64,000 nt of DNA from an uncultured Nocardioidaceae bacterium. GTDB lineage: Bacteria > Actinomycetota > Actinomycetes > Propionibacteriales > Nocardioidaceae. Position numbers and translations under genes: made by a program. Positions within the stretch are counted from its first letter, which is position 1, and each line of letters begins with the position of its first letter. The notes beneath the pieces are model-generated. The model had not been told where the DNA came from and made no database searches. It was given only the letters and a program-made list of their open reading frames with translations. Location of the stretch: NCBI GenBank assembly GCA_902805845.1, contig CADCUI010000079.1, positions 1-64,000 on the forward strand, written 5' to 3'. Shown one piece after another: positions 10,224 through 15,107 of this stretch.

Positions 10224-11216
10224 GTGACCGGCGAGCTGCGCATCGGCGTCCTGGGCGCCGCTGCGATCGCCCCGGCCGCGCTCGTCGTCCCGGCGCGTGA
10301 CGACCTCGAGGTGTCGGTCGCCGCCGTCGCCTCCCGCGACCGCACCCGGGCCGCCGCCTTCGCCGCGCAGCACGGCATCCCGACTGTGCACGACTCCTAC
10401 GAGGCCTTGGTCGCCGACCCCGGCCTGGATGCGGTGTACAACCCGCTGCCCAACGGGCTGCACGGCCAGTGGACGGTGGCCGCGCTCCGGGCGGGGAAGC
10501 ACGTGCTCTGCGAGAAGCCGTTCGCCGCGAACGCCGAGGAGGCGGCAGCAGTGGCGGCGGTGGCGAGCGAGACCGGACTGGTCGCGATGGAGGCGTTCCA
10601 CTACCGCTACCACCCCTTCCTCTCCCGGGCGCAGGCCATCGTCGCCTCGGGTCGGCTCGGAGAGGTACGCCGGATCGAGACCTGGTTCCGCGCCCGGCTC
10701 CGGTCGGCGGCGGACATCCGCTGGGACTACTCGCTCGCGGGCGGCGCGATGATGGACATCGGCTGCTACCCGGTGCACCAGCTGCGCATGCTCGCGGGGG
10801 CCGAGCCGCACGTCCGGTCGGCGACTGCTGACGTCCGCGCTCCCGACGTCGACCGGTGGCTGCGGGCCGAGCTGACCTTCGAGGACGGTCGCACCGGGTT
10901 CGTGAGCGCCTCCATGCTCTCCCGGCGCAGCGGCGCGTCCGGCGCACGGGTGATCGGGTCCCGCGGTCTCCTCGAGCTGCACAACCTGATCAGCCCGCAC
11001 GTGCAGAATCTCCTGGTGCTGCGCACCCGGCGCGGCAACCGGCGCGAGCGCGTGGCCCGCGAGCCGACGACGTTCGCCCTCCAGCTCCGCGCCTTCGCCG
11101 ACGCAGCGCTCCGCGGTGCCGCGCCCCCGACCGGACCCGAGGACGCGGTCGCCAACATGCGCGTCATCGACGCCTGCTACACCGCTGCCGGCCTTCCCCG
11201 GAGAGAGCCCACCTGA
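10224..11216 (+). CDS. Gfo/Idh/MocA-family oxidoreductase
   Basis: 330-residue NAD(P)-dependent dehydrogenase. A Rossmann fold opens with GVLGAAAIAP (about 9-18), the conserved EKPF motif follows HVLCEKPFAAN (about 93-103) and supplies the catalytic Lys, and the C-terminal alpha/beta domain carries GGAMMDIGCYPVHQLR, typical of the trans-1,2-dihydrobenzenediol/glucose-fructose oxidoreductase branch. The start is GTG. Substrate not readable. It is separate from the following operon, with a 154-bp gap. Confidence 0.88.
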   Translation: MTGELRIGVLGAAAIAPAALVVPARDDLEVSVAAVASRDRTRAAAFAAQHGIPTVHDSYEALVADPGLDAVYNPLPNGLHGQWTVAALRAGKHVLCEKPFAANAEEAAAVAAVASETGLVAMEAFHYRYHPFLSRAQAIVASGRLGEVRRIETWFRARLRSAADIRWDYSLAGGAMMDIGCYPVHQLRMLAGAEPHVRSATADVRAPDVDRWLRAELTFEDGRTGFVSASMLSRRSGASGARVIGSRGLLELHNLISPHVQNLLVLRTRRGNRRERVAREPTTFALQLRAFADAALRGAAPPTGPEDAVANMRVIDACYTAAGLPRREPT

Positions 11217-11370: not shown

Positions 11371-11571
11371 ATGACCACGACGCCCAACGAGCCGGTCAGC
11401 GACGACGACATCACCACCGCGGGCGCTCCGCCCGCCGCGGGTGAGATGGGGGTCGGCGGAGACGCCGACGGTGGGGACGCTGACGGCACCGACGGTGGCG
11501 ACGCCGACGGCACCGACGCTGGGGACGCCGACGGCACCGACGGCGGCGACGCCGACGGCACCGACGCGTGA
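11371..11571 (+). CDS. small Asp/Gly-rich octapeptide-repeat protein (possible modified-peptide precursor)
   Basis: 66-residue protein with ATG preceded by GAGG at 7 nt. A 27-residue leader-like part (Asp/Thr/Pro/Ala-rich, no signal peptide) is followed by GGDADG and then four perfect units GDADGTD(G/A), the last ending the protein. The DNA period is 24 bp with synonymous variation, so selection acts on the peptide. The stop lies 3 nt before the start of a JmjC/cupin oxygenase, which in turn overlaps a Fe-S protein gene. The combination suggests a ribosomally made substrate, plausibly hydroxylated on Asp or Thr, or a metal-binding peptide. Function is unproven; I do not recognise a described family. 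Confidence 0.8.
   Translation: MTTTPNEPVSDDDITTAGAPPAAGEMGVGGDADGGDADGTDGGDADGTDAGDADGTDGGDADGTDA
11441..11568 (+). repeat. 24-bp tandem repeat encoding GDADGTDx
   Basis: Direct repeats inside the small gene: a partial first unit and four complete 24-bp units, differing mainly at third codon positions (for example GGTGGC versus GCTGGG at the unit junction). Coding, in phase, and confined to this gene. Confidence 0.85.
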
Positions 11572-11574
11572 GCC

Positions 11575-12702
11575 TTGGAGGCTCTCGACCTCCTCGCCGG
11601 TGATGCACGGACCTTCTCGGAGAAGGTCTGGGGAGCCCGTGTCCACCTCCACCACACCGATCCGGAGCCGCTGGTAGCCCTGCTCGGACTGCCTGACGTC
11701 GACCACCTGCTCACCGGCGCCGCCCTCCGCACACCGGCGGTGCGCGTGGTGCACGACGGGACCGTGCTGCCCGCATCGAGGTTCACGCGGGCCGCCACGA
11801 TGGCGGGGGCGCCGCTCACGGGCCTGGTCGACAGCCGGAAGGTGCTGGCGCTGTTCGCCGGCGGCTCGACGATCGTCCTGCACGGCCTGCACCGCTACTG
11901 GCCGCCGCTCACCGAGCTGGTCCGCGACCTCGAGCTGGCGCTGGGCCACCCGTGCCAGGCCAACGCCTACCTGACTCCGCCGGGGGCCCAGGGCTTCGCG
12001 CGGCACAGCGACACCCATGACGTCTTCGTCTTCCAGACCCACGGTCACAAGCTCTGGGAGGTCGTCGAGGACGGCGAGGCCCGGGAGGTGCTGCTCGAGC
12101 CGGGACTGTCGATGTACCTGCCGACGGGCACGCCGCACTCCGCCCGCTCCCAGGAGGAGGCGTCGCTGCACGTCACCGTCGGCATCAACCGGCTCACCTG
12201 GCGGGACGCCCTCCGACGGGTCACCGACCGGCTGCTGGCCGACGAGCGGTACGACGCTCCGCTCCCGGCGGGTTACCCCGAGGAGCCGGACCGGCTGGCG
12301 GCGAGGCTGGCCGACGAGCTCACGGCGTACGCCGGGCTCCTGACCGGACTGGACGCCGGGGAGGTCGCCCGGCAGCACATCGACGGCTTCCTGACCGAGC
12401 GGACGCCCGCCCTCCACGGCGGGCTGCTCGACCTCGTCGGTGTCGACCGGCTCGACGACGCGACGCTGCTGGAGCGTCGGCCGACGGCGGCATGCGTGCT
12501 GCGGTCCGAGGGCGATGGGGTCGTCGTGATGCTCGGGGACCGCGAGCTCAGGATGCCGGCACGGCTGGAGGAGCCGATGGCGTTCGTCCGGGACCACGCC
12601 GCCTTCCGGGTGGCCGAGCTCTCGCCGTGGCTCGACCCGCAGAGCCGGCTGGTCGTGACCCGCCGGCTCGTGCGCGAGGGTCTGCTGCGGATCGCCCGGT
12701 GA
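11575..12702 (+). CDS. JmjC/cupin-4 family Fe(II)/2-oxoglutarate oxygenase
   Basis: 375-residue protein resembling ribosomal-oxygenase-like cupins (YcfD/NO66 group), which hydroxylate protein side chains. The iron triad is visible as His144-x-Asp146 in FARHSDTHDVFVFQ and His188 in TPHSA; Lys159 in GHKLWEV is the expected 2-oxoglutarate contact. The C-terminal about 150 residues are a helical/winged-helix region, as in the family. The start is TTG at 11575, three bases after the stop of the repeat peptide, with no own ribosome-binding site, so translation is probably coupled to the peptide gene. The adjacent repeat peptide is the obvious candidate substrate (inference). Confidence 0.85.
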   Translation: MEALDLLAGDARTFSEKVWGARVHLHHTDPEPLVALLGLPDVDHLLTGAALRTPAVRVVHDGTVLPASRFTRAATMAGAPLTGLVDSRKVLALFAGGSTIVLHGLHRYWPPLTELVRDLELALGHPCQANAYLTPPGAQGFARHSDTHDVFVFQTHGHKLWEVVEDGEAREVLLEPGLSMYLPTGTPHSARSQEEASLHVTVGINRLTWRDALRRVTDRLLADERYDAPLPAGYPEEPDRLAARLADELTAYAGLLTGLDAGEVARQHIDGFLTERTPALHGGLLDLVGVDRLDDATLLERRPTAACVLRSEGDGVVVMLGDRELRMPARLEEPMAFVRDHAAFRVAELSPWLDPQSRLVVTRRLVREGLLRIAR

Positions 12703-13610
12703 CCTCCGCCCCTGGGCCTGCGCCCGGCTTCCGCTGCGCGATCACCAGCCGCGAGGTCGGGGAGGCGGCGGAGGGGACCGCCTCCACGGTCCGCAGCTTC
12801 CTGCTCGTCGAGTGCCCCGGTCCGTGGGGGGTCGATGCGCTGCGCGACAGCCGGCTCCCCGAGCCGGTCAAGGCGAGACTGCGTGAGCTCGAGCGGACGG
12901 CGGGCGTGAGGCCGCTGCTGGTCCGGCGGCCGGGCCGTGCCGTGGCCGGGGCGATGACCGTGTTCGCCGCCTATGCGGGCACCGACGGATCGTGGCTGGA
13001 GCGCACCGTCGTCCCGGACCTGGCCCAGCTTCCCGACGCGACGCTGGCCGACATCGCCGCCGGAACCTCACCGGGATGGGCTCCCTGCTCCGATCCGGTG
13101 TTCGCGGTCTGCACCCACGGTCGCCACGACGCCTGCTGTGCCGAGCGCGGGCGGCCCCTCGTGGCGGCCCTGGCCGGGATCGCGCCGGACCTGACCTGGG
13201 AGGTCTCCCACATCGGCGGCGATCGGTTCGCCGCCAACGTCCTGGTGCTCCCCCACGGGCTCTACTACGGCCGGCTCGAGCCGCGGGATGCGCATGACCT
13301 GGTGGCTTCGCACGCGGCGGGGCGGCTCGACCTCGAGCACCTGCGCGGCCGGACGGCGTACTCGTTCCCACTCCAGGCCGCCGACATCTACCTGCGCAGG
13401 CACCTCGGCGACGACCGCGCCGCGCCGTTCAGGCTGGTGAGCCACGCTCGCCGCGGCAGCGACACCGACGCGGTCTTCGACGTGGACGGCAGGCGGTGGC
13501 GCGTGCAGGTGACCAGCAGCGCTGACGTACGGCGGCAGGTCACCTGTCGCGCGACGTCGGAGTCGGCTCCGCCGGTCCACCGGCTGTCGGCGCTCACCGA
13601 GCTCACCTAG
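12699..13610 (+). CDS. sucrase/ferredoxin-like (Suc_Fer-like) Fe-S protein
   Basis: 303-residue member of the Suc_Fer-like family, which has a thioredoxin-like ferredoxin fold. Conserved blocks are VCTHGRHDACCAERGRPL (Cys138, Cys146, Cys147) and WEVSHIGGDRFAANVLVLP (His171), which are expected to hold a [2Fe-2S]-type cluster. The GTG start overlaps the oxygenase stop by 4 bp (GTGA), making it the third gene of the 11371-13610 operon. It could donate electrons to, or maintain iron in, the oxygenase; its own function is unknown in most bacteria. Confidence 0.85.
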   Translation: MTSAPGPAPGFRCAITSREVGEAAEGTASTVRSFLLVECPGPWGVDALRDSRLPEPVKARLRELERTAGVRPLLVRRPGRAVAGAMTVFAAYAGTDGSWLERTVVPDLAQLPDATLADIAAGTSPGWAPCSDPVFAVCTHGRHDACCAERGRPLVAALAGIAPDLTWEVSHIGGDRFAANVLVLPHGLYYGRLEPRDAHDLVASHAAGRLDLEHLRGRTAYSFPLQAADIYLRRHLGDDRAAPFRLVSHARRGSDTDAVFDVDGRRWRVQVTSSADVRRQVTCRATSESAPPVHRLSALTELT

Positions 13611-13619
13611 CCCGCTGGG

Positions 13620-15107
13620 TCAGGAGAACCGGACGACCAGCCGTCTCAGGCACTTCGTGGCGAGGATGTACGACGTCACACCGAACGGCCACTGCGAGAC
13701 GATGCGACCGGTGCCGGACTTGAAGTAGCTGTCGGTCGTCCGCCACACCGTGCGTTGGAGTCGTGCCTGGAGCCACTCGTTGTACGCCACCATCGCCGAC
13801 GTCCGAAGGCGGGCCCGGGTGCGTCCCCTCCTGCCGAGCTTCGAGATGACGCCGGCCGCGAAGGCTGCCTGCGCCTCGTAGAAGTGGACGAGCGGAGACG
13901 CGTTCGTGTTCGGCCCGTACATCATGAAGAAGTTGGGATAACCCGGAACCATGAGGCCCAGGAAGGCCTGCGGCTCGCTCTTCCAGGTGTCGTGCAGCTC
14001 GATGCCACCCTCGCCGTACACCTCGTAGCTTCCCAGGTAGTTGGCGGCGTCGAACCCGGTCGCCAGGACCACCATGTCGAGGTCGTGCTCGTCACCGTTC
14101 GCGTCGACCACGCCCGTGCGGGTCAGCTCCTTGACGCCGTGGGGAACCAGGCAGACCTTGGGGTCGAGGAGCGCCGGGTAGTAGCTGTCGCTGACGACGG
14201 TCCGGCGGGCTTCGAACGGGAAGCTCGGAGTCGTGAGCTCGAGCAGCTCGGGCCGGCTGGCGAGCGAGCGGTGCATGAAGTCGATCGAGGCCTGCTTGCG
14301 GCGGCGGTTGGACCGACCGTCGGCTCTGACATGGCTCGAGCGGTACTGCCGGATGTCGTAGTCGAGATACAGCCGCCAGCGACGCCACTTGTACACGGGC
14401 GGGATCTTGTTGAGTCGCCGCTCGAGCGGGCTGAAGTCCCGGCTTCCCTTGGGCAGCAGCCAGTTCGGCTCCAGCTGGAAGATCTTCACCTCGGCGGCGT
14501 CCTTGACCGCGGACTCGATCACCTGCACGGCGGAGCTCCCCGTGCCGACGACCCCGACCGACTTCCCGGACATGCTCAAACCCTCACGCCACGTGGAGGT
14601 GTGGCAGAGGTCGCCCTCATAGGAGTTCGCGCCGCGTGCGAACGCCGGATACAGCGGGATGTTGAGGAACCCCACGGCGCTGATGACGGCGGTGAAGCTG
14701 CCGTCGTTGGCACCGGAGGAGGTCTGCACCGTGTACTCGGCGTCCGCATCGGACCACGTCACGGACTGCACCTTCTCCCGCAGCCGGACGTGCGGCATGA
14801 GCCCCCAGGTGCCCACGACGCTCTCCAGGTAGGCCTGCAGCTCTTGCCACCCCGCATGGGTGCGGCTCCAGTCGCTGTGCTGGAACGAGAACGAGTAGAT
14901 GTGCGACTCGAGGTCGACCTCGGCGCCGGGATAGCGGTTCTTCCACCACGTCCCCCCGATACCGTCGGCGGCCTCGAAGATGACGAAGTCGTCGATGCCA
15001 CGCTTCTTCAGCGCGATCCCGGCGGCGATACCGCTGAAGCCCGCGCCGATGATGGCCACCCTCACCCGCCCGGGCGACCCGGGCAGGGGGGATGCAGGAG
15101 TGCTCAC
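13620..15107 (-). CDS. flavin-containing (Baeyer-Villiger-type) monooxygenase
   Basis: 495-residue FAD/NADPH enzyme. The FAD site is GAGFSG (about 21-26) with the GGTWWKNRYPGAEVD block typical of class B monooxygenases, and the NADPH site is GTGSSA. The Baeyer-Villiger fingerprint FxGxxxHxxxWP is degenerate here: YEGDLCHTSTWR, with Tyr for Phe and Arg for Pro. It would oxygenate a ketone or heteroatom using O2. The GTG start has AGGAG at 8 nt. A 19-bp dyad (15157-15175) shared with other island promoters lies 50 bp upstream, so it probably belongs to the GntR regulon of the catabolic island. Confidence 0.85.
   Translation of the reverse strand: MSTPASPLPGSPGRVRVAIIGAGFSGIAAGIALKKRGIDDFVIFEAADGIGGTWWKNRYPGAEVDLESHIYSFSFQHSDWSRTHAGWQELQAYLESVVGTWGLMPHVRLREKVQSVTWSDADAEYTVQTSSGANDGSFTAVISAVGFLNIPLYPAFARGANSYEGDLCHTSTWREGLSMSGKSVGVVGTGSSAVQVIESAVKDAAEVKIFQLEPNWLLPKGSRDFSPLERRLNKIPPVYKWRRWRLYLDYDIRQYRSSHVRADGRSNRRRKQASIDFMHRSLASRPELLELTTPSFPFEARRTVVSDSYYPALLDPKVCLVPHGVKELTRTGVVDANGDEHDLDMVVLATGFDAANYLGSYEVYGEGGIELHDTWKSEPQAFLGLMVPGYPNFFMMYGPNTNASPLVHFYEAQAAFAAGVISKLGRRGRTRARLRTSAMVAYNEWLQARLQRTVWRTTDSYFKSGTGRIVSQWPFGVTSYILATKCLRRLVVRFS

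Follow-up and report, generated by a model that had tools for sequence, protein, structure and literature searches.

Three adjacent genes in the window, that is the whole stretch of 64,000 nt from an uncultured Nocardioidaceae bacterium that was analysed, encode a short Asp-rich repeat peptide, a JmjC oxygenase resembling NO66 and a Suc_Fer-like iron-sulfur protein. The best explanation of these genes, and one considered reasonably probable, is a compact operon specifying a RiPP-like cassette whose NO66-type oxygenase acts on the repeat peptide by hydroxylation, with Asp as the likeliest target; the chemistry, the product and the role of the iron-sulfur protein are what we infer. The coordinates are collected in Table 1.

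Table 1. Features of the three-gene locus and its neighbours in the window.
Feature	Position	Strand	Details
GFO/IDH/MocA oxidoreductase, upstream neighbour	10224-11216	+	
Asp-rich repeat peptide gene, precursor-like	11371-11571	+	66 aa
Peptide leader region, about 16 aa, D-D-D-I-x-T at its end	11371-11418	+	Position-wise conservation, 81 peptides
Peptide core, four 24-nt units GDADGTD(G/A)	11473-11568	+	Residues 35-66
JmjC_2 / NO66-like Fe(II), 2-oxoglutarate oxygenase	11575-12702	+	375 aa, TTG start, Pfam PF08007
Suc_Fer-like [2Fe-2S] protein	12699-13610	+	303 aa, GTG start, Pfam PF06999
Flavin monooxygenase-like gene, downstream neighbour	13620-15107	-	

The layout described in an earlier note on this DNA was confirmed in every part. 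The 66 residues of the peptide are MTTTPNEPVSDDDITTAGAPPAAGEMGVGGDADGGDADGTDGGDADGTDAGDADGTDGGDADGTDA, of which the leader region comprises MTTTPNEPVSDDDITT and the four GDADGTD units come later in the chain. The TGA stop codon of the peptide gene is separated by 3 nt from the TTG start codon of the JmjC gene, and the JmjC stop codon and Suc_Fer GTG start codon share the sequence GTGA. Both flanking genes lie outside the cassette as judged by conservation on clustering of flanking ORFs. A scan of the locus for promoters and terminators gave no result. A phage origin was ruled out since no match to the JmjC protein was found in phage records, and a defence system was ruled out since the three proteins of the window had no PADLOC match.

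Among 295 genomes searched from the family to which the window belongs, a JmjC homologue of some kind was found in 158 and a full-length orthologue in fewer, indicating that the gene is patchy. The closest named relative found was Nocardioidaceae bacterium UBA4001 with a JmjC protein 73% identical to that of the window. Type 1 loci were defined as distinct loci with sufficient upstream sequence in which the JmjC protein aligned full length with an identity of at least about 45%. One scan of genome contigs gave a single locus, L034, which lies on the contig of L005. The order peptide, JmjC and Suc_Fer was found in all 80 distinct type 1 loci, with the Suc_Fer start located -42 to +59 nt relative to the JmjC end. 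With an identical threshold, the detector of Asp-rich ORFs responded at 14 of 3240 control positions (0.4%) in the same loci, and at 0 of 3240 when the leader pattern was added. A Shine-Dalgarno-like AGGAGGA sequence preceded the peptide gene in 46% of cases versus 4% of the background. The clustering of flanking ORFs, which relied on crude gene-calling, revealed no fourth conserved gene within about 6 kb. Of 49 loci, the method picked up JmjC in 47 and Suc_Fer in only 22, and is therefore known to miss genes; by it neither a protease nor an exporter of the cassette's own, nor a stand-alone RiPP recognition protein, was conserved, which counts against a RiPP-like system. Machinery for leader removal or export is usual, but not universal, in such systems. 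Three loci (L195, L196 and L197) contain an extra, less similar Suc_Fer copy immediately 5' of the peptide gene.

The peptide gene has evolved under purifying selection, with a dN/dS ratio of about 0.16 (pS 0.357, pN 0.073) for 12 gapless peptide pairs at least 75% identical. The earlier note had drawn the same conclusion from synonymous variation among the repeats of the window; the conclusion stands on the comparison across species, whereas the differences among the four units at codon positions 1, 2 and 3 (0, 4 and 12, summed over six pairs) agree with selection on the peptide but are weak evidence when taken alone. A chance or shadow-frame ORF was ruled out by the linkage, the control positions, the enrichment of the ribosome site and the dN/dS ratio.

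The N-termini of 81 type 1 peptides conform to the consensus M-T-T-T-P-x-E-P-L-x-D-D-D-[MI]-x-T, and the leader motif D-D-D-[MIL]-x-T was present in 80 of the 81, for which shuffled sequences predict 0.7. The remainder of the chain varies in length, giving peptides of 57-111 aa that contain from 0 to 10 DxDxxD units, a variation in repeat number that the earlier note had suggested looking for. The repeat unit D-x-D-x-x-D was found in 80 of the 81 peptides, and the type 1 cores are composed of D (35%), G (23%), T (16%), A (13%) and S (9%). Steps of 2 or 3 residues from one Asp to the next accounted for 96% in type 1 cores versus 38% in shuffled cores. This layout is that expected of a recognition leader followed by a repeating modified core, and the two parts may well be used in this way. 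Two features of a RiPP system were found, a short precursor gene beside a modifying enzyme (all 80 type 1 loci and all 34 loci of a second type described below) and, among type 1 peptides, a conserved leader with a variable core. The reading given in the earlier note is supported in part: its claim that a ribosomal repeat peptide is coupled to the oxygenase is strongly supported by the linkage, the conserved leader and variable core, the Asp spacing and purifying selection. The peptide of the window had no Pfam match, no Pfam or NCBIfam model matched the type 1 and type 2 peptides, and five distant precursors had no NCBIfam match; on these searches membership of the peptide in a known family was ruled out.

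The peptide is very probably the substrate or an obligate partner of the oxygenase. In the proposed mechanism it is probably the NO66-type oxygenase that would bind the conserved leader, and this enzyme would then use Fe(II), O2 and 2-oxoglutarate to modify many equivalent sites in the core. The most likely chemistry would be beta-hydroxylation of Asp within the D-x-D-x-x-D units. The Suc_Fer-like protein may support the oxygenase, by re-reducing its iron or by some redox step on the product. A use for the product, for example metal binding, may be supposed.

The loci of type 2, with members in L066-L080, L084 and L169-L188, occur in other actinobacterial families of the same class and have JmjC enzymes related to those of type 1. 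A peptide was found in all 34, of which 31 were detected automatically and those of L039, L076 and L080 were read by eye. These peptides contain GPADGGA or DGGADGGA repeats with an Asp spacing of 4, and the cores are composed of G (39%), A (18%) and D (17%) with 4% Thr and 5% Ser; several contain long DGGADGGA runs in which Thr and Ser are almost absent. Despite the unlike cores, the motif D-D-D-[MIL]-x-T is common to 20 of 32 type 2 peptides and type 1. The core type follows the enzyme clade, with 33 of the 34 type 2 JmjC proteins falling to the same side of a branch that has weak support in the tree; L078 groups with type 2 yet bears DADTTD-type repeats. Suc_Fer was found in 32 of the 34 loci.

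The earlier note had named homologous oxygenases lacking the peptide, or relatives that have lost the repeat, as findings that would count against its reading. The loci favour the link to the peptide, with rare exceptions in two members of the type 2 clade (L074 and L177) that lack Suc_Fer and encode an acidic non-repeat peptide with GPT[VI]EPGA at the end, possibly reflecting a change of substrate.

Given that the peptide is the substrate or an obligate partner, Asp is probably the modified site, since Asp is constant across the core types while Thr falls from 16% in type 1 to 4% in type 2. The composition of the type 2 cores likewise bears on the alternative that the peptide is the substrate and that Thr or Ser is modified instead, or that hydroxylation is a step towards a further product, for example through oxidation, cleavage or dehydration, in whose chemistry Suc_Fer participates. 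This alternative is in keeping with the content of Thr and Ser in type 1 cores (approximately 25%) and with the nearly constant presence of an iron-sulfur protein that simple hydroxylation does not demand; the scarcity of both residues in type 2 cores, above all in the DGGADGGA runs, argues against it and it is judged unlikely.

More distant JmjC enzymes adjoin peptides of about 40 aa, some containing DNDGTD, DSDGTD or DPDGSD. A plasmid of Streptomyces clavuligerus encodes ADNDPSDPPIAIADPDPFDPVI 5' of its JmjC gene, again with the D-x-D-x-x-D spacing. No Asp-rich peptide was detected beside the JmjC gene in L149, L151, L153, L156, L157, L166 and L168. Other JmjC copies on Streptomyces plasmids adjoin YcaO/TfuA, methyltransferase, carbamoyltransferase, peptidase and transporter genes. 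A JmjC relative lies next to YcaO, TfuA, methyltransferase and carbamoyltransferase genes on Streptomyces plasmids (L147 and L148), and plasmid psa3239 of Streptomyces yangpuensis (L201) contains a cluster with two JmjC genes, S9 and M13 peptidases, a carbamoyltransferase and an MFS transporter. In five loci (L152, L154, L158, L160 and L163) a precursor-like peptide with the C-terminal pattern PSDGG[GS]TG[RK][SG]D.ND is encoded 5' of a distant JmjC; among the three of these whose downstream genes were read, a phosphotransferase-like ORF lies 3' of JmjC in all (L152, L158 and L163) and an aldo/keto reductase-like ORF in L163, the ORFs being named by eye. Two further loci of a distant clade (L162 and L165) have a peptide ending ADPDGSDG and JmjC together with a Suc_Fer homologue that is encoded on the other strand.

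Asp-rich sequence can bind metal unmodified, and the D-x-D-x-x-D spacing resembles that of acidic metal-binding repeats. The regularity of this spacing is therefore what would be expected if the peptide were an unmodified Ca- or Fe-binding acidic repeat, and the oxygenase and iron-sulfur protein shared its metal or redox response but left it unaltered. However, the leader motif and both enzymes are unchanged in type 2 where the cores differ in Asp spacing and in their high Gly content, and distant JmjC genes share clusters with YcaO/TfuA, peptidase and transporter genes, as those of modifying enzymes do. Such a role for the peptide is accordingly held to be quite improbable, and hydroxylation of the repeat peptide is the reading preferred here.

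The JmjC protein of the window matched Pfam JmjC_2 (PF08007) with an E value of 2.7e-18 and a score of 66.2 against a cutoff of 22. Its AlphaFold2 model, with a pLDDT mostly above 95 and around 97, contains the ribosomal-oxygenase fold comprised of JmjC, middle and C-terminal winged-helix regions. The best structural match on VIA-align of the model was human NO66 (Z 27.3, 366 residues, 24% identity), a match that takes in the JmjC and the C-terminal helical/winged-helix parts, with MINA53 and YcfD ranking below. The iron site that the earlier note had described as intact was borne out by alignment to NO66, which identified H144-x-D146...H188 as the iron ligands and K159 as the 2-oxoglutarate lysine, all of them invariant across enzyme types 1, 2 and 3. 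Several arginines, R52 and R107 among them, do not vary in types 1 and 2 but do in type 3; it is a guess that they hold the acidic substrate. When a read-through of the peptide into JmjC (TGA as Trp) was modelled with AlphaFold2, the peptide had no confident placement, with pLDDT <50 for most of it. NO66, MINA53 and YcfD hydroxylate His or Arg in ribosomal proteins. It is quite improbable that the enzyme is likewise a ribosomal oxygenase acting on a ribosomal protein, with the peptide an unmodified acidic partner, chaperone or regulator, since although the match to NO66 spans the JmjC and C-terminal parts, the gene is patchy in the family, and a generic ribosomal oxygenase needs neither a linked peptide nor a core type that follows the enzyme clade. 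It is this gene linkage that argues for the peptide rather than a ribosomal protein as substrate.

The Suc_Fer-like protein matched Pfam PF06999 with an E value of 1.4e-19 and a score of 71.4 against a cutoff of 34.9, and its AlphaFold2 model had a pLDDT of 94.5. The model is comprised of an N-terminal part, a thioredoxin-like [2Fe-2S] ferredoxin domain at about residues 132-218 and a C-terminal cystatin-like sheet. The ferredoxin domain matches the thioredoxin-like ferredoxin of Aquifex over 87 residues (Z 12.7, rmsd 1.7). Residues C13, C138, C146, C147, H171 and C283 are invariant, and position 175 in the HIGGD motif (HxGG[D/H]) is Asp in 93 of 94 sequences. Yeast Apd1, reported to have a 2Cys2His site, shares with the protein of the window both PF06999 and the thioredoxin-like ferredoxin domain (PMC11126956). 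The bacterial proteins keep Cys residues and H171 but have Asp175, so that their fourth ligand may differ from that in Apd1. Homologues of Suc_Fer exist outside the cassette. Two loci (L189 and L190) encode homologues with 42-44% identity located 3' of an ORF of ~1000 codons, with neither JmjC nor an Asp-rich peptide. Enzymes dependent on 2-oxoglutarate require no stoichiometric supply of outside electrons; for this reason, and because 2 of the 34 type 2 loci are without Suc_Fer and homologues occur elsewhere, that the protein supplies electrons is a guess. From the conservation of Suc_Fer, which is not absolute, and its occurrence beyond the cassette, maintenance of the oxygenase in its working redox state and a direct part in the chemistry are equally likely. 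A function in redox support is put forward tentatively.

A search of the open-access literature, with subscription journals and preprints mostly outside its scope, found no paper on the gene set of JmjC, Suc_Fer and an Asp-repeat precursor, and the decRiPPter paper mentions neither JmjC nor cupin. Hydroxylation of peptides by JmjC proteins is already known within RiPP pathways, as is Asp beta-hydroxylation in a graspetide cluster, while the combination found here is apparently an undescribed family of ribosomally made peptides, and there is a real chance that the cassette is a distinct class. A broader possibility, plausible although short of probable, is a widespread and undescribed actinobacterial RiPP class in which an NO66-like JmjC protein is the primary enzyme with Suc_Fer, the products are poly-beta-hydroxyaspartyl repeats that may be metal chelators, and the D-x-D-x-x-D spacing is reused by several precursor families. 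If true, a common peptide-modifying system of actinobacteria resides in small genes without a Pfam or NCBIfam model, and the range of JmjC hydroxylation in bacteria, so far ribosomal proteins and tailoring at single steps, would grow to include the modification of a repeat peptide at many sites, with the three-gene cassette as a simple test bed. A chain of beta-hydroxyaspartates made on the ribosome would be a novel kind of metal-binding polymer, although this is speculation.

The enzyme of the window resembles NO66, MINA53 and YcfD (PDB 4ccm, 4bxf and 4liv) in whole-length fold, iron ligands and the 2-oxoglutarate lysine, and differs in that its gene is tied to those of a small repeat peptide and Suc_Fer. 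SmaO is an Asp beta-hydroxylase in a graspetide cluster, as cited in PMC13097080; compared by that description, the likeness lies in the proposed type of reaction only, Asp beta-hydroxylation of a RiPP precursor, and the SmaO cluster has an ATP-grasp ligase, no gene for which was conserved around the cassette on clustering of flanking ORFs. The JmjC protein BipG is the RiPP ornithine hydroxylase of biphenomycin biosynthesis (PMC12707348), to which PbsQ, a JmjC or cupin hydroxylase, is related (PMC12257519). The likeness of BipG/BpmG and PbsQ to the enzyme of the window is that of the JmjC fold, the use of Fe(II) and 2-oxoglutarate, and a substrate (in the window a probable one) that is a precursor peptide made by the ribosome. 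They perform a late tailoring of ornithine in a cluster that also has MNIO, B12-radical-SAM and protease genes, whereas in the cassette described here no modifying enzyme other than JmjC is obvious, its partner is Suc_Fer and the core consists of an Asp repeat.
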